DNA of 22,871 bases from a virus. How positions within the stretch are numbered: the stretch's first letter is position 1; each line of letters begins with the position of its first letter. This document shows positions 21 to 20,829 of this stretch, piece after piece. The stretch is taken from IMG/VR virus record IMGVR_UViG_3300042914_003545, positions 1 through 22,871 of that record. One strand, 5' to 3'. The notes under the pieces were generated by a model that made no database searches, was not told the DNA's origin, and saw only the letters and a program-made list of their open reading frames with translations. The translations under genes and the position numbers were made by a program.

Positions 21-332
21 GTGATTCGTGAGGCAGTGAAACAGGCTGCGCCGTTTAACCTTGTTAACATTGTTGACATGTCTATACAGCAAGTTATTCC
101 ATCACACCAGCCCGAAAAAAGAAAAGATTTGCTAGTTGTAGCATTACAAGACCTTATGGATATCGCTGACAACCTGCACGCCCTGCCACCACCCCCGCCG
201 ACGCGGGAGCAGATGGAAGAGGCGCTGCGCTTCCTGCTTGATCACCTCAATTGCAACCCATTAAGCCAACTAGCCCAGGAAGCAGCAACCCTTGCAGCCG
301 GCATTGACCACTACTGCAAGGAGCAGCCATGA
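21..332 (+). CDS. Small hypothetical phage protein, possibly truncated by the window edge
   Basis: I do not recognise this protein. The frame is open to the left edge, so the gene may begin outside the window. Possible starts inside are GTG at 21 and ATG at 78, and the second would give 84 residues. The middle has a run of five prolines, and the C-terminal half looks helical and acidic (REQMEEALRFLLDHL). Its stop overlaps the start of the Rad52-like gene as ATGA, which suggests co-translation and places it at the head of the recombination operon. A promoter-like sequence lies inside the 5' part, so the true start is uncertain. The frame is plausible because of this coupling and because codon use fits the neighbours. 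Confidence 0.55.
   Translation: MIREAVKQAAPFNLVNIVDMSIQQVIPSHQPEKRKDLLVVALQDLMDIADNLHALPPPPPTREQMEEALRFLLDHLNCNPLSQLAQEAATLAAGIDHYCKEQP
61..88 (+). promoter_or_regulatory. Candidate sigma-70 promoter
   Basis: TTGTTA at 61-66 and TATACA at 83-88 are separated by 16 bp, each matching 4 of 6 consensus positions. A perfect TTGACA lies at 73-78 but has no good partner 17 bp downstream. The site lies at the start of the recombination operon. It would fall inside the first gene if that gene starts at or before 21, so it remains tentative. Confidence 0.3.
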
Positions 333-1231
333 GCGACGCAACGCCCGCCCATCGTGCTGGTTTTTCGGCTGACCAGATCGCAGCATTAGCGGCACCGCTT
401 GATCGCGCCAACGTTAAGCAGCGCGAGCAATCTGGTCAAAAACTCAGCTATATTGAAGGCTGGGTTGTAATTGCAGAAGCCAACCGCATCTTTGGCTTTG
501 ACGGCTGGCAGCGTGAAACTGTCACGCTTAAGTGTGTCTCTCAGCTAGAGCGCCCAGTAGGCAAACAACAAAGGCCCGGATGGGGTGTCACCTACAGCGC
601 CCGCGTTCGCATCACCGTCACTGCTGGCGGGCTGCAGCCAATCATCCGCGAAGGCAGCGGCGCTGGTCACGGCATCGACGTGGACCTAGGACAGGCCCAT
701 GAATCCGCGCTCAAGGAGGCAGAGACCGACGCGATGAAGCGGGCCCTGATGACTTTCGGCAACCCGTTTGGCCTGGCTCTTTACGACAAGCTGCAGCGGG
801 AGGTAGAGGGTGATGCCCCGCCTGCGTCAGGTTCCCAGCGATCGTCTTCGCAGCGAACCCAACAAGCGGGCTCTTCTGCTCCGCGCCAGTCAGCGGCAGC
901 CGTTGTTCGACGGGGGGACCCTGCTGGCCAGTCAGCCCCCGCCGCCCAAGCACCCGGCAGCGCCGCGCCACCCAGCGCCACCACTCAACCCCTTAGCGGC
1001 TTTGCGGCCACCACGGCGGCGGCTATCACGGCGTGTCATGAGGCGGGTCTTACCGCGCTCGGTATCGCCGCCATGTGCCACGAACTGAGCAAAGGTGAGT
1101 GTGGCGCCGTTGCGGGCTTGCCTCTGAAGACTCAAGAGAAGCTGATCACGGCTGGCGTATCTGCCGCATCTGCCGCCAAGTGGAACGCCGCCGGGGCCGA
1201 AGCCGAAGATTCTGATCCTCCGATGATCTAG
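329..1231 (+). CDS. Rad52/Rad22-family single-strand annealing protein
   Basis: Single-strand annealing proteins of this family coat phage ssDNA and anneal complementary strands during recombination-dependent replication and repair. The first 160 residues carry the family signature: LSYIEGWVVIAEANRIFGFDGW near residues 39-60 (quoted motif parts YIEGW and ANRIFGFDGW), an REGSGAGHG loop at 107-115, and AHESALKEAETDAMKRAL at 123-140 followed by the diagnostic TFGNPFGLALYDK at 142-154. Residues 165-225 are a Ser/Gln/Ala/Pro linker. The tail is helical and ends in an acidic stretch (EAEDSDPP). At 300 residues it is within the range of phage members. Its ATG overlaps the upstream stop by 4 bp. SSB and RusA homologues lie downstream, as expected for a phage recombination module. 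Confidence 0.92.
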   Translation: MSDATPAHRAGFSADQIAALAAPLDRANVKQREQSGQKLSYIEGWVVIAEANRIFGFDGWQRETVTLKCVSQLERPVGKQQRPGWGVTYSARVRITVTAGGLQPIIREGSGAGHGIDVDLGQAHESALKEAETDAMKRALMTFGNPFGLALYDKLQREVEGDAPPASGSQRSSSQRTQQAGSSAPRQSAAAVVRRGDPAGQSAPAAQAPGSAAPPSATTQPLSGFAATTAAAITACHEAGLTALGIAAMCHELSKGECGAVAGLPLKTQEKLITAGVSAASAAKWNAAGAEAEDSDPPMI

Positions 1232-1285
1232 GCGCTCCCGTCGCCGCTTGATTAATCCTTCCTCTACACCTCCGTAACTAATGAC

Positions 1286-1669
1286 ATGGCAATGACTAAG
1301 AAAGAGCAGGCAGAAATGAAGGCAGCGATTGACCGCGCCGACACGCTTGCCGCTTTGCGATGGACAAACCCGGTTCCACGCGATGTGGGCATACCCGAAA
1401 CTGGCTACAGTCAGGGTTGGGATTACAACGCCTGGACTCGGGAAGTGCGTATTTATTGGAGTAGTAGTGTTTCCCACGGGACCGGCCCCGCGCCTGAGGC
1501 TGGAAAGCGCAGAAACGGATCTCAGAAGCCTCTACGCATGTATTCCACCGAAGCGCTCGCGCTGGCCGCGATGCGCCATGAAATTGAGCTAAAAACGGCA
1601 GCCGATCTACTCAAAATTGATCGACTGATTGCCGCTGCGCTGCATGTCGGCGGCACCGAACCCGCCTAA
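1286..1669 (+). CDS. Conserved phage protein of the recombination cluster, function unknown
   Basis: This 127-residue protein belongs to a type I recognise from phage recombination/replication clusters but cannot assign a function to. The N-terminus is a charged helix (KKEQAEMKAAIDRA). The centre has an aromatic motif, QGWDYNAWTREVRIYWSSS at about 53-71. The C-terminal segment YSTEALALAAMRHEIELKTA is a helix typical of this group. It sits 54 bp after the Rad52-like gene and about 45 bp before the SSB ATG, on the same strand, so it is probably co-transcribed with both. ATG 1286 is preceded by no clear Shine-Dalgarno, as for several genes here. Codon usage fits the neighbours. Confidence 0.8.
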   Translation: MAMTKKEQAEMKAAIDRADTLAALRWTNPVPRDVGIPETGYSQGWDYNAWTREVRIYWSSSVSHGTGPAPEAGKRRNGSQKPLRMYSTEALALAAMRHEIELKTAADLLKIDRLIAAALHVGGTEPA

Positions 1670-2628: not shown

Positions 2629-2816
2629 CGCAACAGGAACCACCCCGCTGCTCCGCCATTGTAGCAGCAGCAAGGACTACGGATTGTTACGGCCGCACTC
2701 GCAGTCGCGCAACCGATGGGGTATGGTTTGGAGGTCGAAGCGATTCGACGCACCATTCCCAACCACCCGGCGAGGACCTTGAGCGGCCCCGGTTGGTGAT
2801 CCACACCCCAAGACCA

Positions 2817-3332
2817 ATGAACACCACCATCAAGGCGGCACTTCGGGCTGACTGGGCCCCTGCAATCGAGTCCACTGCTCGCGCCATTGGCGTTGCGATC
2901 GCCTGCGTGATCGTTGCCGCCGACTGGCTGCGCTTCACCCAGCAGCACCCGTGGGCGGGGTTGCGAGCGCTTGAGTTTCCCGGCGCCGCCAGCTCCCCGA
3001 ATTTGACCACTAGCTCCCCGAATTTGACCACTAGCTCCTCGAATTTGGCGGTTAGCTCCTCGAATTTGGCGGTTAGCTCCTCGAATTTGGACGCTGCTAT
3101 AGCAGCTACTGAGCGCTATGCGTTGGCATTTGGCGGGAACAGTTCTGAAGTTGTGGATTGGCTGTTGCGGCGCCAATCTGAAGCCGCGATGCAGAACGCG
3201 ATGGGCAAGCTAGCAATGCTCCCCGCTACGCCGGAGCCACTTCTGCTGCCCGCCGCATTGGATCCGATCGCCCCAGTCCCAGCACCCCGCAAACGCGGCC
3301 GTCGCGCCACTCGACAACCAAAGGTGGCGTAA
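2817..3332 (+). CDS. Small protein with a hydrophobic N-terminal helix and a 7-residue tandem repeat
   Basis: I do not recognise this 171-residue protein. ATG 2817 is chosen; an in-frame TTG lies at 2793. Residues 22-36 are a hydrophobic stretch (IGVAIACVIVAADWL) that could be a membrane segment or buried helix. At about 61-95 there are five in-frame copies of a heptad of the form SS(P/S)NL(T/A)(T/V), from a 21-bp DNA tandem repeat. A helical segment follows (DAAIAATERYALAFG and VVDWLLRRQSEAAMQ). The C-terminus is proline-rich then strongly basic (PRKRGRRATRQPKVA), which suggests nucleic-acid binding. The gene stands alone on the plus strand, convergent with the minus-strand island, and a terminator hairpin lies just past its stop. 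Confidence 0.65.
   Translation: MNTTIKAALRADWAPAIESTARAIGVAIACVIVAADWLRFTQQHPWAGLRALEFPGAASSPNLTTSSPNLTTSSSNLAVSSSNLAVSSSNLDAAIAATERYALAFGGNSSEVVDWLLRRQSEAAMQNAMGKLAMLPATPEPLLLPAALDPIAPVPAPRKRGRRATRQPKVA
2991..3089 (+). repeat. 21-bp tandem repeat, five units, in frame
   Basis: Units start AGCTCC(C/T)CGAATTTG followed by six variable bases. The first two units end ACCACT, the next two GCGGTT, and the last diverges into the following codons. Each unit encodes seven residues. The two subtypes are each internally identical, pointing to recent unit-by-unit duplication by slippage or unequal recombination. Confidence 0.9.
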
Positions 3333-3336
3333 GGCC

Positions 3337-3365
3337 AAAAAAAGAGGGGCCCATCCCGGCCCCCT
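3337..3365 (-). terminator. Intrinsic terminator of the minus-strand island
   Basis: Read on the minus strand, GGGGCC (plus 3358-3363) pairs with GGCCCC (plus 3346-3351) across a 6-nt loop. TC and a run of seven T (plus 3337-3343) follow. This is a canonical GC stem plus U-tract, 21 bp past the stop at 3386. It also lies directly after the convergent plus-strand gene ending at 3332, although on that strand no T-run follows. Confidence 0.85.
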
Positions 3366-3385
3366 TCCAATCCTCTTGAGTATTC

Positions 3386-3943
3386 TTACCCAACCGGTTC
3401 GGCTTGGCGATCCCATGCGCTCGCAAGCTGACCATTGGTCAGCGCTTCCCGAGCCTCTTGCAACATCTCAAGCGCAACGCCAAGGGCCATCATGCTGCGG
3501 CGATCACCCGCCCGCTGGGTTCGCAGCTTTAGTTGCTCAACCTTGCGGCTGGCCTCCACCACCGACCCCACCGCTTCCTGCACTTCACGGGTCATCGGGT
3601 CATAGTGCTCAACGACTGGCGCCATCGCCTGCGTTACCGGCCGCACCGATGCCACCCGCGTCTCCGGTTGAGCGCTGGGCACCACCCGCACCACCTTGAT
3701 CAGCGTGCTGGCCTGGTGCTCCCGCCATTGCTCGGCCGCCACCGGATCGCGCCATTCAAACGCCGGGTGCAGTGGCGCATCCTCGGGGCGGGCTTCATCG
3801 ACTACCGCCGCAGGCTTGATCGTGCCATCACGGCGGCGAATGCGGTCTAGTTCGCTGCCAGCCGTCTGGGCATCAATGCCTAGCACCTCATCGCCATCTT
3901 CGATTCTGAAAGTGAATTCGGGTTTAGCTTTGGTGGGATTCAT
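3386..3943 (-). CDS. Conserved phage protein with an LHPAFEW motif, function unknown
   Basis: This 185-residue protein starts at ATG 3943. The open frame extends further upstream into the repeat array, but that part is repeat-derived. Residues 43-78 hold the most distinctive segment: a Val/Asp/Ala-rich strand, then ARPEDAPLHPAFEWRDP and a helix with EQWREHQAS. It is reminiscent of a widespread phage group I remember as hypothetical. Residues 111-168 are predicted helical or coiled coil (MTREVQEAVGSVVEASRKVEQLKL). The gene is last in the minus-strand island and is followed by a strong intrinsic terminator. It probably shares a transcript with the 5335-4688 gene, with the GG-repeat array between them. 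An inverted repeat lies 18 bp upstream of its start. Confidence 0.8.
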   Translation of the reverse strand: MNPTKAKPEFTFRIEDGDEVLGIDAQTAGSELDRIRRRDGTIKPAAVVDEARPEDAPLHPAFEWRDPVAAEQWREHQASTLIKVVRVVPSAQPETRVASVRPVTQAMAPVVEHYDPMTREVQEAVGSVVEASRKVEQLKLRTQRAGDRRSMMALGVALEMLQEAREALTNGQLASAWDRQAEPVG

Positions 3944-3961
3944 TTGATCAGTGGGTAAAGG

Positions 3962-3991
3962 GAATGAGGGGGCCCATTCAAGCCCCCATTC
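3962..3991. repeat. Inverted repeat at the right end (minus-strand sense) of the GG-repeat array
   Basis: GAAT plus GGGGGC (3962-3973, with a 2-nt bulge) pairs with GCCCCCATTC (3982-3991) across an 8-nt loop. It lies between the repeat array and the start of the 3943-3386 gene. There is no U-tract on either strand, so it may be an RNA structural element or a translation-control hairpin rather than a terminator. Confidence 0.5.
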
Positions 3992-4645
3992 TGCTGCCAT
4001 TTGGCATCTGCAACAACGCCGGCAATACCTTGCGGTGCCTTGCGCCGTCAAGCCAGGCCACGCCTGCCGCGCAATGCCGTGCAACACCGTGGGCCGTCAA
4101 GCCAGGCCACGCCTGCGATGCCGTACCTCTCCAGTCCACTCCGTGCCTTGCCGGTCCTGCGGAGCCAATCCCGGCCTACCGAGCCATGCCTGCCTCGCGT
4201 TACCAAGCCCATCGGTGCCCACCGGTCCACGCCACGACTGCATCGCGCTGCCAAGCGCTGCCTTGCCTAACCATGCCTGCCGTGCCATGCCGTTCCTCGA
4301 ACGCACCTGGCCTCGCCACGCCGTGCCTGCAATACCACGCGGAGCCATACCGGTCCACGCCACGCCTGCCAATCCGATCCTGGCCCATCCATCGCTGCCT
4401 CACCTGCCGCGCCTGACCTGGCAACGCCCTGCCTCGCCTGCCGTGACTGTTCGTGGCTCTCCGGGCCTTGCCTTGCCTGCGTCGCCGTACCTTGCACTAT
4501 CCCGACCACGCCTAGCCAGCCGTGACTGAACAGGCCGTACCTTGCGAAGCCATGCCTGCCATTCCGGGCCAACCTGACCGTGCCACTCCTGCCAATCCTT
4601 GCCACGCCCTTTCGTGCGGAGCCTTGCCTAACCGGCCATGCCAGA
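3992..4645 (-). repeat. Degenerate pentanucleotide (GGCAN-like) repeat array, non-coding
   Basis: Read on the minus strand, the stretch is an almost unbroken series of 5-nt units beginning GG (GGCAT, GGCAA, GGCAC, GGTAC and others), interrupted by 4-nt GGCA units. On the plus strand this appears as CCAYGCCTGCC recurring near 4060, 4110, 4185, 4273, 4358 and 4545. A 24-bp exact direct repeat lies at 4044-4067 and 4093-4116. Smaller repeats such as GCGGAGCC, GCCGTACCTTGC and GCCGTGACTG also recur. Open frames of up to 192 codons run through it on both strands, but they are compositional artefacts. The array lies between two minus-strand genes, downstream of the first, so it should be transcribed as a long internal untranslated region. 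The unit is far too short and variable for CRISPR. Confidence 0.85.
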
Positions 4646-4674
4646 CCCTGGCTGCCGTAAAGCAATCGCCAGGG
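4646..4674. repeat. Inverted repeat at the left end (minus-strand sense) of the GG-repeat array
   Basis: CCCTGGC (4646-4652) and GCCAGGG (4668-4674) form a 7-bp stem with a 15-nt loop, 13 bp past the stop of the 5335-4688 gene. No U-tract follows in the minus direction, so read-through into the array is likely. Confidence 0.5.
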
Positions 4675-4687
4675 CCATGATCAATCA

Positions 4688-5335
4688 TCAGACGATCTCG
4701 AACAGACCGAAGCCCAGCCCCGCGCTGTTTTTGCTGTCGGGTCGTCCTTCGCCGATACCAACCTGAAGCCCCACTCGGCTGATCAGGTTGACCAGGTCGG
4801 CCGAAGTAAACATTCCGGCGTCGTACCGGATTCGTAAATTTGCCGCCCACTCTCTATACATCGGACGGCAGCGTAAATCAATGACACCCGTGGTGTTTCG
4901 AGTAGGGGCTGTCCATTCTTCTGCTGTTCCCTCCGTCAGCCGAACCAAAGGGGCACCGTCAACCCGGTCAAAGCCATCGGCAAACACACTAAACGCCAAT
5001 TTGGCGTGAGTCATTTTGACTCCGACGGTACGACAGGCGGAAATGGCGCCGTTCCTGAATGCGGCGGCATGGATCCCTTCCCATCCTTCGGCGGCAACAT
5101 GCTTGGCGCTCTCGAAAAGAGCGGTAAAATCCTTTGCCTCGCGCACCTTCTTGCCTCTGGCGGTGCTGCCCGCTTCCTGCGTGGCTCGCATCTGGTCCAT
5201 GGCTTTTTTGCTGAAGCGATTGATCACCAATGGGCTGGTGCCCCTAATCTTGATCTCAATGAGCCTGAAGTCAGGGGCCTGAATAGTGATGGCCTCTTCC
5301 GGTGCCTGGGATTTGGCCTTGGTGGTGGTTGCCAT
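4688..5335 (-). CDS. Conserved phage protein with a C-terminal GxGEGRP motif, function unknown
   Basis: The start is ATG 5335 (MATTTKAK). Sequence further upstream in the open frame overlaps the divergent gene and is not plausible. The 215-residue protein opens with a Thr/Lys/Glu-rich tail, then the hallmark segment IEIKIRGTSPLVINRFSKKA at 26-45. The middle contains AAFRNGAISACRTVG (91-105) and a helix with KLAFSVFADGFDR. The C-terminus is glycine-rich, LQVGIGEGRPDSKNSAGLG at 190-208, then FGLFEIV. I recognise this as a common phage family without assigned function. The Gly-rich end recalls the loops of RAMP/Cas7-like ferredoxin folds, but that is a guess. It leads the minus-strand island and is divergent from the coiled-coil gene at 5448. 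Confidence 0.82.
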   Translation of the reverse strand: MATTTKAKSQAPEEAITIQAPDFRLIEIKIRGTSPLVINRFSKKAMDQMRATQEAGSTARGKKVREAKDFTALFESAKHVAAEGWEGIHAAAFRNGAISACRTVGVKMTHAKLAFSVFADGFDRVDGAPLVRLTEGTAEEWTAPTRNTTGVIDLRCRPMYREWAANLRIRYDAGMFTSADLVNLISRVGLQVGIGEGRPDSKNSAGLGFGLFEIV

Positions 5336-5447
5336 GGTGGCGTTCTCAATGATGGAGTTTGGAGATTTGTGCCGTGCCTGCCGCTGACTGTAAGCCGTTG
5401 CGGTCTTGAAATGGTATCGTACGTAGGGCAATACGAAACCACCACCG
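5336..5447. promoter_or_regulatory. Divergent intergenic control region
   Basis: This 112-bp stretch separates the divergent starts at 5335 and 5448, so promoters for both directions are expected here. I see TTGAAA with a CAATAC about 17 bp on (plus strand) and a palindrome-centred TATCGTACGTA, but neither is a convincing promoter. The call rests on gene orientation. Confidence 0.45.
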
Positions 5448-6593
5448 ATGACCACGGCAAAGGCCAGCACCAAGACCAAAGCCGCCGCAACCGCCGAACT
5501 TCCCCTAGTCGCCACAACTGAGGCCGTCCCTGAGGAAAACGACGCCACCACCACCGCCCCAGACGGCGCCATTGTCCCAGCAGGTGAAACCACTGCAATC
5601 TCCCGATGGGAGGCGCTGGCCCTCAGGATCGCGGAAGCCGAAGAGAAGGCGGCTAGCAAGCGGTTTGACTACCGAGACGAATGGGACAACAAAGCGGCCC
5701 GTTCCTGGGTGCACGAATTGCGGGGCATCAAGGGTTCAATAGAGCGCTGCAGGAAGGAGGCCAAGGCCGTTCACCTGGAGCGCGGCAGGGCTGTAGACGA
5801 CAGCGCCAAGCTGCTGGAGTCCGCCGTTCAAGGACTGATCGAGCCCCACGAAACGGCGATCAAGGCCATCGAGGCCGAAGAACAGGCCCGCATCGACGCC
5901 CACCGCGCCGTGCTTGACCGCATCGCCGCCCTGGCTGATGCCGCTGGGGCAGAAGGGGGAGACGGCATCGTTGACGTTGACGCCAGGCTGGCAGAACTGG
6001 CAGCGATCGATACCAGCACCCTCGAAGAGTTTGCGCAGGCCGGTCTGAACCGCCAGGCCGAAGCTATTGAGCAGCTGGGACTGCTGCGGGACAAACTGGA
6101 AGCCCAGGAGGCCCAGCGTATTGAGCTGGAGGCCCTGCGTGCGCAGGCCGCCGCCCGTGAGGACGCCGACCGCATTGCGAGACTGCAACAGGAGGCGGTA
6201 GAGGCCGACCGGCTGGCCCGTGAGGCGGAAGCGGCAGCCCGTGTTGCCGAAGCCGAAGAGCGGGCACGCAAGGAACGGGAGGATGCCGCTACCAGGGAAG
6301 CTCAGGCGCTGGCCCAGGTGGAAGCAGCACGCATTGCGCAGGAGGAGGCGGAGCGCCGGGCCGAGGAGGCGGCTGCACGGGAGGAGGCCCGCGTTAAGCA
6401 GCAAGCCGAGATGGAGGCGGCATTGCGGGAGGCGGCTGCCAGGGCTGCGGCGGCACAGCAGCAGTGCCGGGATGCGTTCGTGGCTGCCCTTACCGCGACC
6501 TTCACCACCATGGGCCCCGCCGACGCCGCCCGCGCCATCGCTGACGGGACGCTTCATCCGGCGGTGAAGGTGGACTGGTCTTTGGTCGCCTGA
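5448..6593 (+). CDS. Long coiled-coil phage protein of the recombination/replication region
   Basis: The 381-residue product has a Thr/Ala/Lys-rich N-terminal 50 residues, a helical domain at about 50-150 (HELRGIKGSIERCRKEAK), and then a long Ala/Glu/Arg coiled coil at about 195-345. The last 35 residues are a small domain, FTTMGPADAARAIADGTLHPAVKVDW. This arrangement, a coiled coil plus an A-R-A-I-A-x-G-x-(I/L)-HP-x-V end, is common in phage proteins encoded beside single-strand annealing proteins. Its biochemical role is not known to me. It may be a structural or partner-binding accessory of recombination. ATG 5448 has no clear Shine-Dalgarno. The coiled coil generates several long spurious frames on the other strands. 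Confidence 0.82.
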   Translation: MTTAKASTKTKAAATAELPLVATTEAVPEENDATTTAPDGAIVPAGETTAISRWEALALRIAEAEEKAASKRFDYRDEWDNKAARSWVHELRGIKGSIERCRKEAKAVHLERGRAVDDSAKLLESAVQGLIEPHETAIKAIEAEEQARIDAHRAVLDRIAALADAAGAEGGDGIVDVDARLAELAAIDTSTLEEFAQAGLNRQAEAIEQLGLLRDKLEAQEAQRIELEALRAQAAAREDADRIARLQQEAVEADRLAREAEAAARVAEAEERARKEREDAATREAQALAQVEAARIAQEEAERRAEEAAAREEARVKQQAEMEAALREAAARAAAAQQQCRDAFVAALTATFTTMGPADAARAIADGTLHPAVKVDWSLVA

Positions 6594-6598
6594 TCGCC

Positions 6599-6979
6599 AT
6601 GCTCACCTGCCCTCACTGCGGCATCGCAATCCGCGATCAACCGCCCACCAGTCCCGACGACCAGCCACTGGACAGCGAATCCGCCCGCCAGTTGCAGCGC
6701 ATTGAGGCCGAACTGGCGCGGGTGAAGGCTGCGATACAGCCGCAGACTGCCCCGGTGCCAATCGAAGACCTGAAGCTATCGACGCGGGCTAACAACGCGC
6801 TGAAGCGCGTTGGAGTTCACACCCTGGCCACGCTGCTCAACTGCAGTAACTTCGACTTACTGGACATTCGCAACTTCGGCCCCAGCTCACTCGGCGAAGT
6901 GCAGTTGGCCTTGCATCTGCGAGGCTTGAAGTTGCGGAAGGATCGAATGCTGCCACGGACTGGACGGGCTCGCAGTTGA
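6599..6979 (+). CDS. Phage protein with an RNA polymerase alpha C-terminal domain (alphaCTD-like), copy 1
   Basis: Residues 53-113 are an RNAP alphaCTD: PIEDLKLSTRANNALKRVG, a helix, then LLDIRNFGPSSLGEVQLAL and GLKL. In bacteria this domain binds UP-element DNA, activators and sigma region 4. Aligned to E. coli alpha, the DNA-contact residues R265 (here R63), N268 (N66), G296 (G94), S299 (S97) and E302 (E100) are present. C269 and K298 are replaced by Ala and Ser. The N-terminus has a single CPHC knuckle (C4, C7), likely a decayed version of the zinc ribbon in the next gene. A helical linker (about 27-46) joins the two. No alpha N-terminal domain is present. It follows the coiled-coil gene by 5 bp and precedes its paralogue by 31 bp. 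Confidence 0.9.
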   Translation: MLTCPHCGIAIRDQPPTSPDDQPLDSESARQLQRIEAELARVKAAIQPQTAPVPIEDLKLSTRANNALKRVGVHTLATLLNCSNFDLLDIRNFGPSSLGEVQLALHLRGLKLRKDRMLPRTGRARS

Positions 6980-7010: not shown

Positions 7011-7502
7011 ATGTTCCCCTGCCCTAACCCCAACTGCAAATGCTTTGAGCGGCGGGTGCTGGAGACTCGCTATGAGTCCAGTCGCGCTGCTATCCGCCGC
7101 CGTTGCATCTGCAAAACTTGCGGATTTATCTTCACCACGGAGGAGAAAGTTCGGATTGCCAAGAAAGAGCAACGGCCAATTACGGGCGCATCAGATCAGC
7201 CGTTGGTGCCCATCACACTGGAAGCCCGACTTGATAGCATCGAAACCGAACTGGCAGTGGTCCGGATGGAAATAGCCCAGGCACCACCACCAGTCCCTGT
7301 GCCTATCCAAGAGCTTGAACTTGGCGCGTACGCTTACGGCTCGCTGAAGCGGCAAGGGATCACCACCGTTGATGCCCTGGTCAAATTCTCAGGCGCGGAC
7401 CTGTTGAGCCTGCGCAATTTTGGTCAACAATCACTGAATGACGTGCGGGTGGCCCTAGCCCTGCGGGGGCTGGCCCTGCGCCCGGAGCGGACTAGCCCAT
7501 GA
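7011..7502 (+). CDS. NrdR-like zinc ribbon fused to an alphaCTD-like domain, copy 2
   Basis: This 163-residue protein has two domains. Residues 1-50 resemble the NrdR zinc ribbon: C4-x4-C9 and C34-x2-C37, with the SSRAAIRRRCIC and GFIFTTEEKV segments. In NrdR this part binds operator DNA; the ATP-cone domain that normally follows is missing. A helical linker (about 69-90) leads into an alphaCTD at about 97-157, IQELELGAYAYGSLKRQG then LLSLRNFGQQSLNDV and LRGLAL. The helix-hairpin-helix core (NFG, SL) is intact, but the positions of E. coli R265 and N268 are Tyr 107 and Gly 110. DNA contact may therefore come from the ribbon and protein contact from the alphaCTD fold. ATG 7011 is chosen as it starts just before C4. 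Confidence 0.9.
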   Translation: MFPCPNPNCKCFERRVLETRYESSRAAIRRRCICKTCGFIFTTEEKVRIAKKEQRPITGASDQPLVPITLEARLDSIETELAVVRMEIAQAPPPVPVPIQELELGAYAYGSLKRQGITTVDALVKFSGADLLSLRNFGQQSLNDVRVALALRGLALRPERTSP

Positions 7503-13507: not shown

Positions 13508-13824
13508 GCGACACCCTGCCCCCAGACCTCTACGGTTCGACGATCCGCCGAAACGCGGACGGGTCGTGGTCGTATCAAGTCGGCCCCCACGCATGGCGCC
13601 CAATGCTTGCCCCTCAGACCGCAGCACCGTGGGCAACACCTTCAGCGGCTTCCATTCCCATGGAAAGGCTTGATGCACAAGCGCTGGCAGTCCAGCTAGA
13701 GGAAGACGGCAAATACTTGATGGCATCTGCTATTGCCAATCAATGCCCCAAAACACGCGATCTGGCCGTTCGGGTGATCCGCGCTGCCGTGTTGCTTGCT
13801 GGTGGCTGGGGAGGTGAGCGATGA
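13504..13824 (+). CDS. Small hypothetical protein
   Basis: The 106-residue product starts at ATG 13504 (ATGA overlap). The N-terminus reads like a small beta module (YGSTIRRNADGSWSYQVG, then PHAWRPML), followed by a Pro/Ala linker. The helical end has DAQALAVQLEEDGKYLMASA and DLAVRVIRAAVLLAGGW. No family is recognised. Its stop overlaps the next start as ATGA. Confidence 0.65.
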   Translation: MSDTLPPDLYGSTIRRNADGSWSYQVGPHAWRPMLAPQTAAPWATPSAASIPMERLDAQALAVQLEEDGKYLMASAIANQCPKTRDLAVRVIRAAVLLAGGWGGER

Positions 13825-13970
13825 CCACCCCCACGCCACTAAGCCCCGCCGCGCAGGCGGTGAAGTCCGAAGCCGAAGAGGCCTTTTGGGACTGGGACAA
13901 CGCGCAGCCCAAGGACCCCCAGGAAATCGCAGCAGCCTTGATCCGCCGCCTTGTGATCCTGCATGGCTGA
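13821..13970 (+). CDS. Tiny coupled protein, 49 residues
   Basis: ATG 13821 to TGA 13968 gives 49 codons starting MTTPTPLSPAAQAV and containing a helix-forming acidic part, EAEEAFWDWDN, then EIAAALIRRLVILHG. It overlaps the previous gene by ATGA and the next by 8 bp. The start resembles the internal ATG of 13172-13507, suggesting a duplicated leader. Codon position use is GC-rich and consistent with coding. Confidence 0.6.
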   Translation: MTTPTPLSPAAQAVKSEAEEAFWDWDNAQPKDPQEIAAALIRRLVILHG

Positions 13971-14172
13971 TCCTTTCATCACCATTGCCTCCACAGGTGG
14001 CAGGATTGGTCGCTTCTGCTGGGTAAACAGCGATCTGCGCCGGGATCACCGCAGTTGCATTATCGTCCAGGGGCAGATTGGCGGTCGAGCGCCCTGGGAT
14101 TACCCCCTCGGCTGGTGGGGTTCGTCGTATTTGTGCTCACCCCATCCGGCGACGCCCGGGGAGGCGTGGTGA
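13963..14172 (+). CDS. Small protein repeating the GGRIGRF motif
   Basis: The 69-residue product from ATG 13963 begins with TIASTGGRIGRFCWVNSDL, nearly the same as the start of the 12747 protein. The rest (IIVQGQIGGRAPWDY and a Pro/His/Ser end) differs. It may be a truncated or separately evolving copy of that N-terminal module. It is coupled upstream by an 8-bp overlap and downstream by TGATG. Confidence 0.55.
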   Translation: MADPFITIASTGGRIGRFCWVNSDLRRDHRSCIIVQGQIGGRAPWDYPLGWWGSSYLCSPHPATPGEAW

Positions 14173-14513
14173 TGCTTGGCCTGACCCTTTCAAACCGCAT
14201 TGCCCTGGTGCTCTGCCAAGCTCAGGACGGCGGCCCCCCTTGCCCTGCCCCGTGCGTTCGCTGCCGCGCCATGGCCGCTGCAGCTGCCCACGAAATTGCC
14301 GACTGGCTGCGTGAGCGCCACGGTGGCAGCAGCACCACTGCCGACCTGCTTGATGGGGTCGGGTGCCACCAGCCCGACACCGAGCCGTCTATCCAGGACA
14401 GATGGAGAGCCCTGGAGCGCAGGCAGGACCCGCGAATGTGGCCACCGATTGACCCGGGGCAGGAAGCTGCCGCGCTGGCCGTTGGCCGGGAGCTGCGGAG
14501 GCCCCATGTCTGA
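14172..14513 (+). CDS. Small hypothetical protein with a Cys cluster
   Basis: ATG 14172 overlaps the previous TGA and gives 113 residues. Cysteines at 15, 24, 28 and 31 (QDGGPPCPAPCVRCRAM) could bind a metal. A helix follows, AAAHEIADWLRERHGG. The C-terminal part is acidic and Trp/Pro-rich (DRWRALERRQDPRMWPPIDP). I recognise no family. It is coupled to the next gene by an 8-bp overlap (ATGTCTGA). Confidence 0.62.
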   Translation: MLGLTLSNRIALVLCQAQDGGPPCPAPCVRCRAMAAAAAHEIADWLRERHGGSSTTADLLDGVGCHQPDTEPSIQDRWRALERRQDPRMWPPIDPGQEAAALAVGRELRRPHV

Positions 14514-19556: not shown

Positions 19557-19738
19557 CCACCCACCAACCACCCGAACCCATGGACACCCCTGAATCAATG
19601 GAAACCAAAGTGGCCATGCCCGAAGAACTTAAGGCGGAATTTGAAAAACTACGAAACCAAAACCAGACTTTTAGGATTTGCTTCTACCTTCAATCCCTTG
19701 CCATCCTGATATTGACATTTGGTCCCCTTCTGCAGTAA
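19553..19738 (+). CDS. Small putative membrane protein
   Basis: ATG 19553 (ATGA overlap with TerL) gives 61 residues: a Pro/Glu-rich start, a short charged helix (PEELKAEFEKLRNQNQTF) and a C-terminal hydrophobic segment (ICFYLQSLAILILTFGPLL) that would span a membrane once. Base composition in the second half is AT-richer than the neighbours. The TAA overlaps the next ATG (TAATG). Position next to packaging genes does not define a role. Confidence 0.6.
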   Translation: MTTHQPPEPMDTPESMETKVAMPEELKAEFEKLRNQNQTFRICFYLQSLAILILTFGPLLQ

Positions 19739-20829
19739 TGACCACCATCCTCAACCCGCAACCACGGCCCACCAATGACAACCCTGAAGCTCCCGAAGGC
19801 TCCCTTGTCCCAACTGATCGGCAAGCCGGTGGCGGGGACATGGCGTCTTCGCCAGTCGTCGCAGGGGAGCCACCTGGAGCTGTTCCGCTTCGGGGGGAGC
19901 TGGACGGCGCCATCGCCGGCGGTGAGGATCCACCTGACCCCCGCCCACGTCGTACTACTCGATCGCGGCGAGCTGTTCGTGAAGGAGAACCCCTAGAACA
20001 GCCAGTCAAGCCCGGCAGCCCGCCCCGTACCGAGCTATCCGAGCGGTTGATCACTGAAAACCAAGGCCTCGCCCGCAAAGCTGCCAACAAGTGGGCAAGG
20101 CTTTGTGGTCGCCCCTATGACGACTTCATCGGCCCCGCGTTGTTAGGGCTTGTCAATGGCTGCCGACGCTACGACCCCACCCGTATCAACACTGGCACCG
20201 GTCGCCCGTATGCCATCTCTACCTGCGTCTGCCAGTACATCGAAGGGGAGATCAAGCACTACATCAGAGATCACGGATATGACGTAAAAATGCCTAGCAA
20301 GTGGCGCGAGCACTACCCAAAGGTGCGCCGGTTGCTGGCCGAAGGCTTGACCCTGGCCCAGATCGTAGAGGCCATCCCCGCTTTTGCCGAGTCCGAGATC
20401 ACCGAAATGATGGGCGCCATGGTCGGCACCGTAGAGCTTGAGGACGAAATCACCCTGTTCAGCGATCACCAACCCCAGGCCGTGGACGAAAGCCTTGCCC
20501 CGGCGTTGTTCCGCCTGACTGAACAGGCATTTAACAACCTGCGACTCGCTGACCGTGGCTTGCTGGAGCGATGGGCTGCCGATCCGTTCAAGAGGAGCTA
20601 CCCATCAGGGCCGATCATCCAGTTTCACAACCGCTTGAAGGCCCAGCTGCGCGGCAAGACCCTGCAGCAGTTCCGCCAGGGGATGCTTGGTATTGACGTG
20701 GTGGCCACACCCCCAGCACCCAAGGCCCGCAGCCCACGCCAGCCCAGGCCCGCAGCTTCCCCAGTCGTCCAGCCGTCGCTGTTTGGCCGTAATCAGCGCA
20801 AGCCGCACCCTAGGGCGGTAAAGCTATAG
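19738..20829 (+). CDS. Phage sigma-70-type factor (regions 2-3 clear, region 4 not recognisable)
   Basis: The core at about 101-240 is sigma-70 region 2 and part of region 3. ITENQGLARKAANKWARLC and PYDDFIGPALLGLVNGCRRY match region 2.1-2.2, with an AISTCVCQYIEGEIKHYIRD helix for 2.3-2.4. VKMPSKWREHYPKVRRL is the region 3 start. The tail (240-363) shows no region 4 helix-turn-helix and ends Pro/Lys-rich. Such a factor could direct host RNAP to phage promoters but may lack -35 contacts. The first ATG (19738, TAATG) gives a Pro-rich N-terminal 95 residues. Those 95 codons run over a second, better-looking frame (19775-19996), so the true start could be farther downstream at a non-ATG codon. Confidence 0.85.
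   Translation: MTTILNPQPRPTNDNPEAPEGSLVPTDRQAGGGDMASSPVVAGEPPGAVPLRGELDGAIAGGEDPPDPRPRRTTRSRRAVREGEPLEQPVKPGSPPRTELSERLITENQGLARKAANKWARLCGRPYDDFIGPALLGLVNGCRRYDPTRINTGTGRPYAISTCVCQYIEGEIKHYIRDHGYDVKMPSKWREHYPKVRRLLAEGLTLAQIVEAIPAFAESEITEMMGAMVGTVELEDEITLFSDHQPQAVDESLAPALFRLTEQAFNNLRLADRGLLERWAADPFKRSYPSGPIIQFHNRLKAQLRGKTLQQFRQGMLGIDVVATPPAPKARSPRQPRPAASPVVQPSLFGRNQRKPHPRAVKL
19775..19996 (+). CDS. Possible small gene overlapping the sigma N-terminus
   Basis: ATG 19775 opens a 73-codon frame with a coherent strand-rich product: QLIGKPVAGTWRLRQSSQG, then LELFRFGGSWTAPS and HVVLLDRGELFVKENP. Third codon positions are mostly G or C, which is the signature of coding in this GC-rich genome. The sigma frame over the same bases is Pro/Arg-rich and has mixed third positions. 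I think this is a real gene, with the sigma 5' region either dual-coding or misassigned. No family recognised. Confidence 0.55.
   Translation: MTTLKLPKAPLSQLIGKPVAGTWRLRQSSQGSHLELFRFGGSWTAPSPAVRIHLTPAHVVLLDRGELFVKENP

Follow-up and report, generated by a model that had tools for sequence, protein, structure and literature searches.

The analyzed window, an IMG/VR virus record of 22,871 bases, carries a vipr gene, a GG-rich repeat array, and a vap-like gene. The three share the minus strand and probably form a single operon. As the preliminary description had stated, the array is flanked by two co-directional genes. The locus comprises the following features:

4688..5335, minus strand: vipr gene, 215 aa, PHROG 4652; predicted RAMP (Cas7/Csm3-like) protein expected to coat GGYNN RNA
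4646..4677, minus strand: leader hairpin that follows the vipr stop codon and precedes the array
3992..4656, minus strand: putative vrRNA array of ~130 units, mostly GGYNN, in ~15 modules parted by 4-nt units, mostly (N)GCA
4117..4157, minus strand: example module with the units GGACC GGCAA GGCAC GGAGT GGACT GGAGA GGTAC GGCAT
4015..4068, minus strand: last module, best kept among relatives, down to contig L009
3957..3991, minus strand: GC-rich hairpin 3' of the array, a predicted fold without a T-run
3386..3943, minus strand: vap-like accessory gene, 185 aa, PHROG 15946
3345..3364, minus strand: tentative terminator-like site of the intrinsic type 3' of the vap-like gene, a 7-pair stem followed by a T-run

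The portal protein encoded in the window is nearest to the portals of Synechococcus and Prochlorococcus phages, which makes a cyanobacterium the probable host. Adjoining the portal gene, 19678-20829 (plus strand) encodes a sigma-factor-like phage protein (PHROG 36098, E 7e-18). An RNA polymerase alpha C-terminal domain is present in the products of two small phage genes on the plus strand, 6599-6979 and 7011-7502 (E 2e-15 and 2e-14), the second of which also carries an NrdR-like zinc ribbon; both proteins are possible transcription modulators. Further, an ORF at 2793-3332 (plus strand) contains a tandem 7-residue repeat (SSPNLTT/SSSNLAV), the apparent source of which is a short DNA repeat inside the gene.

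Both inverted repeats said to bound the array are present. The upstream one (within 4640-4690) folds with a minimum free energy of -22.6 kcal/mol, well below shuffles (z -3.0), and the leader hairpin is kept in five close relatives. The downstream hairpin (within 3950-4000) is no stronger than same-composition shuffles (z -0.2); the element at 3957..3991 is a possible terminator or attenuator ahead of the vap-like gene.

The GG-every-5-nt period reported for the array is borne out. The minus strand at 3992-4645 contains 108 GG dinucleotides in 654 nt, and a GG-to-GG distance of 5 is observed 61 times, whereas shuffles that preserve the dinucleotide content predict 17.4 (z 12.1). Other GG-spacing peaks occur at 10, 14, 19, 24, 29, 34, and 39, indicating 5-nt units with a 4-nt unit inserted every few units. 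Tokenization of 4656-4015 by dynamic programming yields 133 units, of which 110 have 5 nt, 21 have 4 nt, and 2 have 6 nt. Among the 5-nt units, G occupies position 1 in 95/110 and position 2 in 98/110, C or T occupies position 3 in 91/110, and positions 4-5 are mixed. The array unit is GGYNN, in which GG is fixed, Y is mostly a pyrimidine, and NN is nearly information-free. A search of 3300-5500 with the Rfam 15 covariance models gave no match up to E 1.

The two-layer G-quadruplexes envisaged earlier can be drawn as 64 overlapping motifs, and the stretch could be read as an RNA or DNA tract kept for this structure. However, three-layer motifs are absent and GGG runs number only 7, neither the 5-nt period nor the pyrimidine at position 3 is needed for quadruplex formation, and the link to the RAMP gene would be left unexplained. 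Quadruplexes are physically conceivable but not required to account for the GG period, and we regard this reading as extremely unlikely.

The 4-nt (N)GCA units part the array into modules of mostly 7-11 units, the commonest size being 8-9 five-nt units; no tail lies between modules in the window array. (N)GCA makes up 58% of 867 distinct four-nt units, and the border consensus over 407 distinct boundaries reads [G]GCA-GGC-RW-GGC-NN-GGC-NN. Over the same boundaries, GG carries ~1.2-1.9 bits and interior NN 0.03-0.12 bits. In the example module at 4117..4157, the NN positions read CC AA AC GT CT GA AC AT, and nearly identical NN are found in two relatives (L004 and L007). Close relatives, with vipr 94-96% identical, keep most modules and differ by whole modules gained or lost; the last module could serve as the array's 3' terminus or tail. 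The preliminary description had asked whether GG periodicity is kept while the sequence changes. Y varies most, then NN, and GG least: in shared units, the variable columns, small in number, are 26% for Y (mostly C/T), 14-18% for NN, and 6-11% for GG. Small as these numbers are, a guide array selected to keep its targets would look like this, with Y more variable than NN and NN more variable than GG.

An RNA-guided system with repeats of this type has been described. According to a preprint of April/June 2026 (PMC13142463), VIPR (Viral Interference Programmable Repeat) is a CRISPR-like phage tool that binds and silences rival-phage DNA. It combines a RAMP protein with RNAs of 9-16 YNNGG repeats, the NN pairs of which recognize DNA as NNxNN. 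The preprint further states that the studied Vipr members, SUSP1 Vipr being the protein studied, bind GGY/NN RNAs, that an invariable 3' tail comes after the repeat tract, with staggered and overlapping array forms also named, and that accessory vap genes (vap1-6) belong to the system.

The gene at 4688-5335 encodes a predicted Vipr, a RAMP protein with a modeled Cas7/Csm3-type fold. Its AlphaFold2 model (pLDDT 84) has Csm/Cas7-type RAMP subunits as best structural matches (VIA-align Z ~11), and the first-ranked of these align ~130-150 residues at an rmsd of ~3.4-3.9. A conserved GIGEGRPDSKNSAGLGFG near the C-terminus looks like the RAMP glycine-rich loop. One PDB chain is well matched by the Vipr sequence, 36pp "SUSP1 Vipr protein" (phmmer E 9e-4, profile E 1.6e-4); this match is weak but specific, with low sequence identity, and the Alf5 homolog is matched at E 6e-8. 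The RAMP fold expected of a Vipr protein, with its RRM core and glycine-rich loop, is supported by the structural matches of the model, the conserved C-terminal motif, and the 36pp sequence match. Pfam, where the family is absent, NCBIfam, and PADLOC returned nothing useful for Vipr, and the three likewise returned nothing useful for the vap-like gene. The model of the vap-like protein (pLDDT 73, pTM 0.38) gave no Foldseek match below E 0.7, and its sequence is unrelated to Alf5 gp092. The vap-like gene is found by profile in 81/96 loci with vipr, and both genes match 33 phage records each with the same organism breakdown. The gene at 3386-3943 is probably the vap partner of Vipr.

The array goes together with vipr across relatives. 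A scan of viral contigs with the 4688-5335 product led to 80 fetched relatives, nearly all with an adjoining same-strand GG-period array. The preliminary description had allowed for relatives with the gene pair and no array; what is found in the enlarged set is a same-strand GG-period array in 84 of the 90 fetched loci with the upstream gene vipr, and among the six loci without array, two lie on contigs that stop near the gene (L035 and L047). Loci without vipr have an array in only 6/123 cases (1.29 Mb), of which four (L138, L139, L175, and L119) are explained and two (L154 and L180) are near threshold. L138 at 2974-3700 (minus strand) and L139 likewise carry a vap-like gene and a short decayed array without vipr, and are probably remnant VIPR loci. 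L119 and L175 are cyanophage contigs related to the window via the terminase and the helicase, respectively. L119 at 13763-14288 (minus strand) has another VIPR-like kind of array, in which each GG-period tract carries a hairpin tail (AGCAAGGAGGG...CCCTTCCCTGC). L175 at 300-1390 (minus strand) also shows VIPR-like GG-period tracts with hairpin tails, and a divergent vipr (E 2.7e-7) lies just upstream. Thus, two VIPR kinds occur among related cyanophages.

The array is placed up- or downstream of vipr, always on the vipr strand, in loci with differing neighbors. Cyano-, Mycobacterium, and Gordonia phages as well as Verrucomicrobia and Planctomycetota contigs, whose vipr identities span 34-96%, all retain its 5-nt period. 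By blastn against phages, the array matches only Mycobacterium and Gordonia phages, all of which carry the same system. In the Mycobacterium phages Donkeykong (L002:5960-6315) and Saal (L003:3980-4230), a GGCNN array lies just upstream of the vipr homolog; it lies in an unannotated gap in Saal and under the hypothetical protein gp48 in Donkeykong, which is probably not a real gene.

This linkage bears on two further explanations. A DNA element, be it a replication origin, a recombination hot-spot, or a protein-binding iteron array, would suit the Rad52/SSB/RusA cassette near the array (329-2581). The constant strand relationship to vipr among differing neighbors argues against it, and iterons would have conserved units, whereas NN is nearly free here; we consider it very improbable. 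Of the roles suggested in the preliminary description, the replication origin and the recombination hot-spot thus find no support, while a protein-coated minus-strand RNA is favored by the adjoining gene for the RAMP protein Vipr. Neutral polymerase slippage could produce a short tandem repeat, and the short period and the GC-rich phage would fit. The units are diverse, however, and a period maintained over such vipr divergence in an array tied to this gene leaves slippage with hardly any likelihood.

The earlier statement that the array has no coding sense holds for protein but not for the NN positions, which resemble guide information. This could be tested independently of any target, using the NN dinucleotides of 545 distinct guides. 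Corrected for base composition, their log-odds correlate at 0.89 with sense codon positions 1-2; the remaining frames reach 0.56-0.78, and dinucleotides overall 0.78. Sense positions 1-2 come out best in 495/500 bootstraps by locus and in each of three subsets, although weakly (0.39) in the window's subset, and they are again the best fit when the base composition of NN is considered. This statistical and indirect signal would be expected under the published NNxNN one-base-skip code with one NN per codon. It further suggests that guides are mostly mRNA-sense and would pair with the DNA template strand rather than with the mRNA.

When viral contigs were scanned for exact matches to two window guides and three further ones, hits were absent or at chance level. 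One in-frame match, PKTVLETI, falls in a gene that resembles tail-fibre genes (L218/L220) and is indistinguishable from chance. A local target search over 2.1 Mb, in which skips 0-3 and mismatches were allowed, likewise yielded no clear excess for the one-base skip, and the isolated hits in L025, L060, L083, and L161/L162 correspond to what chance would produce. The association between neighboring NN pairs is too weak to pick a skip length.

The stretch could alternatively be a VIPR-derived array that specifies a long Vipr-coated RNA filament with a structural or decoy role, in which NN are filler rather than guides. The lack of tails between modules and the failure of the searches to reveal a target are compatible with a filament, as is the modal module of 8-9 units, which lies at the low end of the published 9-16 repeats. 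Yet the modules form separate blocks with (N)GCA borders and are turned over whole, NN are kept better than Y in close relatives (in small numbers), and their likeness to codon positions 1-2 is unlike filler. We therefore consider a filament or decoy improbable, in favor of a guide array.

Taken together, the match of Vipr to the RAMP fold and to SUSP1 Vipr, the GGY/NN array, and the second small gene, as in PMC13142463, identify the locus as VIPR. We conclude with high confidence that the stretch serves as the vrRNA guide array in a VIPR system carried by the phage, formed by vipr (5335-4688), the array (4656-3992), and the vap-like gene (3943-3386). Noncoding repeats with conserved GGY and hypervariable NN, and a same-strand array beside vipr, are both found here. 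Mechanistically, one Vipr (RAMP) subunit would hold the GGY of each GGYNN unit and leave NN to pair with DNA. Successive NN would be read as NNxNNxNN, the skipped target base usually being the codon wobble base. One module (~7-11 units) would represent one guide, with the 4-nt (N)GCA unit as its border. Once bound, guides may silence genes of rival phages, prophages, or satellites that share the host, probably a cyanobacterium. By analogy to PMC13142463, we infer that the array RNA is expressed and processed at (N)GCA or close to it, that it assembles into an RNP which binds DNA and represses rival elements, and that the vap-like protein assists.

More tentatively, the locus might belong to a distinct VIPR lineage with tailless head-to-tail guides, (N)GCA units breaking the Vipr register, guides that are mostly in-frame copies of the coding strand (the first two bases of each codon), hence unable to pair with the mRNA and expected to act on DNA, and whole-module gain and loss in many phage groups; we regard this as possible but rather doubtful. 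VIPR has been proposed to predate CRISPR, and its description dates only from 2026. The window locus and its ~90 relatives provide a diverse comparative set for the tailless lineage, in which the (N)GCA border, module turnover, and codon-like NN lead to testable predictions on guide length, RNA processing, and target strand. As phages of Mycobacterium smegmatis, for example Saal and Donkeykong, carry the same kind of array, tests are feasible in a standard laboratory host.

Compared to known systems, TIGR-Tas (PMC12045711) is similar in being RNA-guided, compact, and borne by phages, and in having a guide array. The search that led to its protein started from a Cas9 RNA-interaction domain, the abstract does not call this protein a RAMP, and nothing of its type was found at the VIPR locus. 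Class 1 CRISPR-Cas shares the RAMP fold of the Csm/Cas7 backbone and, by analogy, the combination of an RNA-coating subunit with a modular guide array. In contrast, the array has no palindromic repeat with unique spacers, no adaptation or other cas genes occur among the genes annotated here, and the information is spread over NN pairs inside the repeat. Instead of near-identical direct repeats and unique spacers of constant length, the array is a continuous GGYNN tract in which only the 4-nt (N)GCA border recurs.

VIPR type II (SUSP1, with a relative in Alf5) is alike in its RAMP-fold vipr, the adjoining same-strand GGY/NN pentanucleotide repeats with hypervariable NN, a second small gene, and its presence in phages. 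In Alf5, however, a conserved structured non-repeat 3' tail follows each tract, while the window guides have none and are separated by 4-nt (N)GCA units only; moreover, the window Vipr is distant from SUSP1 Vipr, and the vap-like gene has no relationship to Alf5 gp092. The "staggered arrays" of PMC13142463 may be the same as this tailless, GCA-punctuated form, for which no new type is claimed. Arrays with the same GCA punctuation are present in Cyanophage Cy-LDV1, Gordonia phage ODay, and the Mycobacterium phages Saal and Donkeykong, which have homologous vipr and vap-like genes, GGCNN arrays, and GGCA borders, and differ in their guides and in whether the array lies before or after vipr. The type of system is already known, and the window locus is a new VIPR representative of a tailless GCA-punctuated lineage that Mycobacterium and Gordonia phages also carry.
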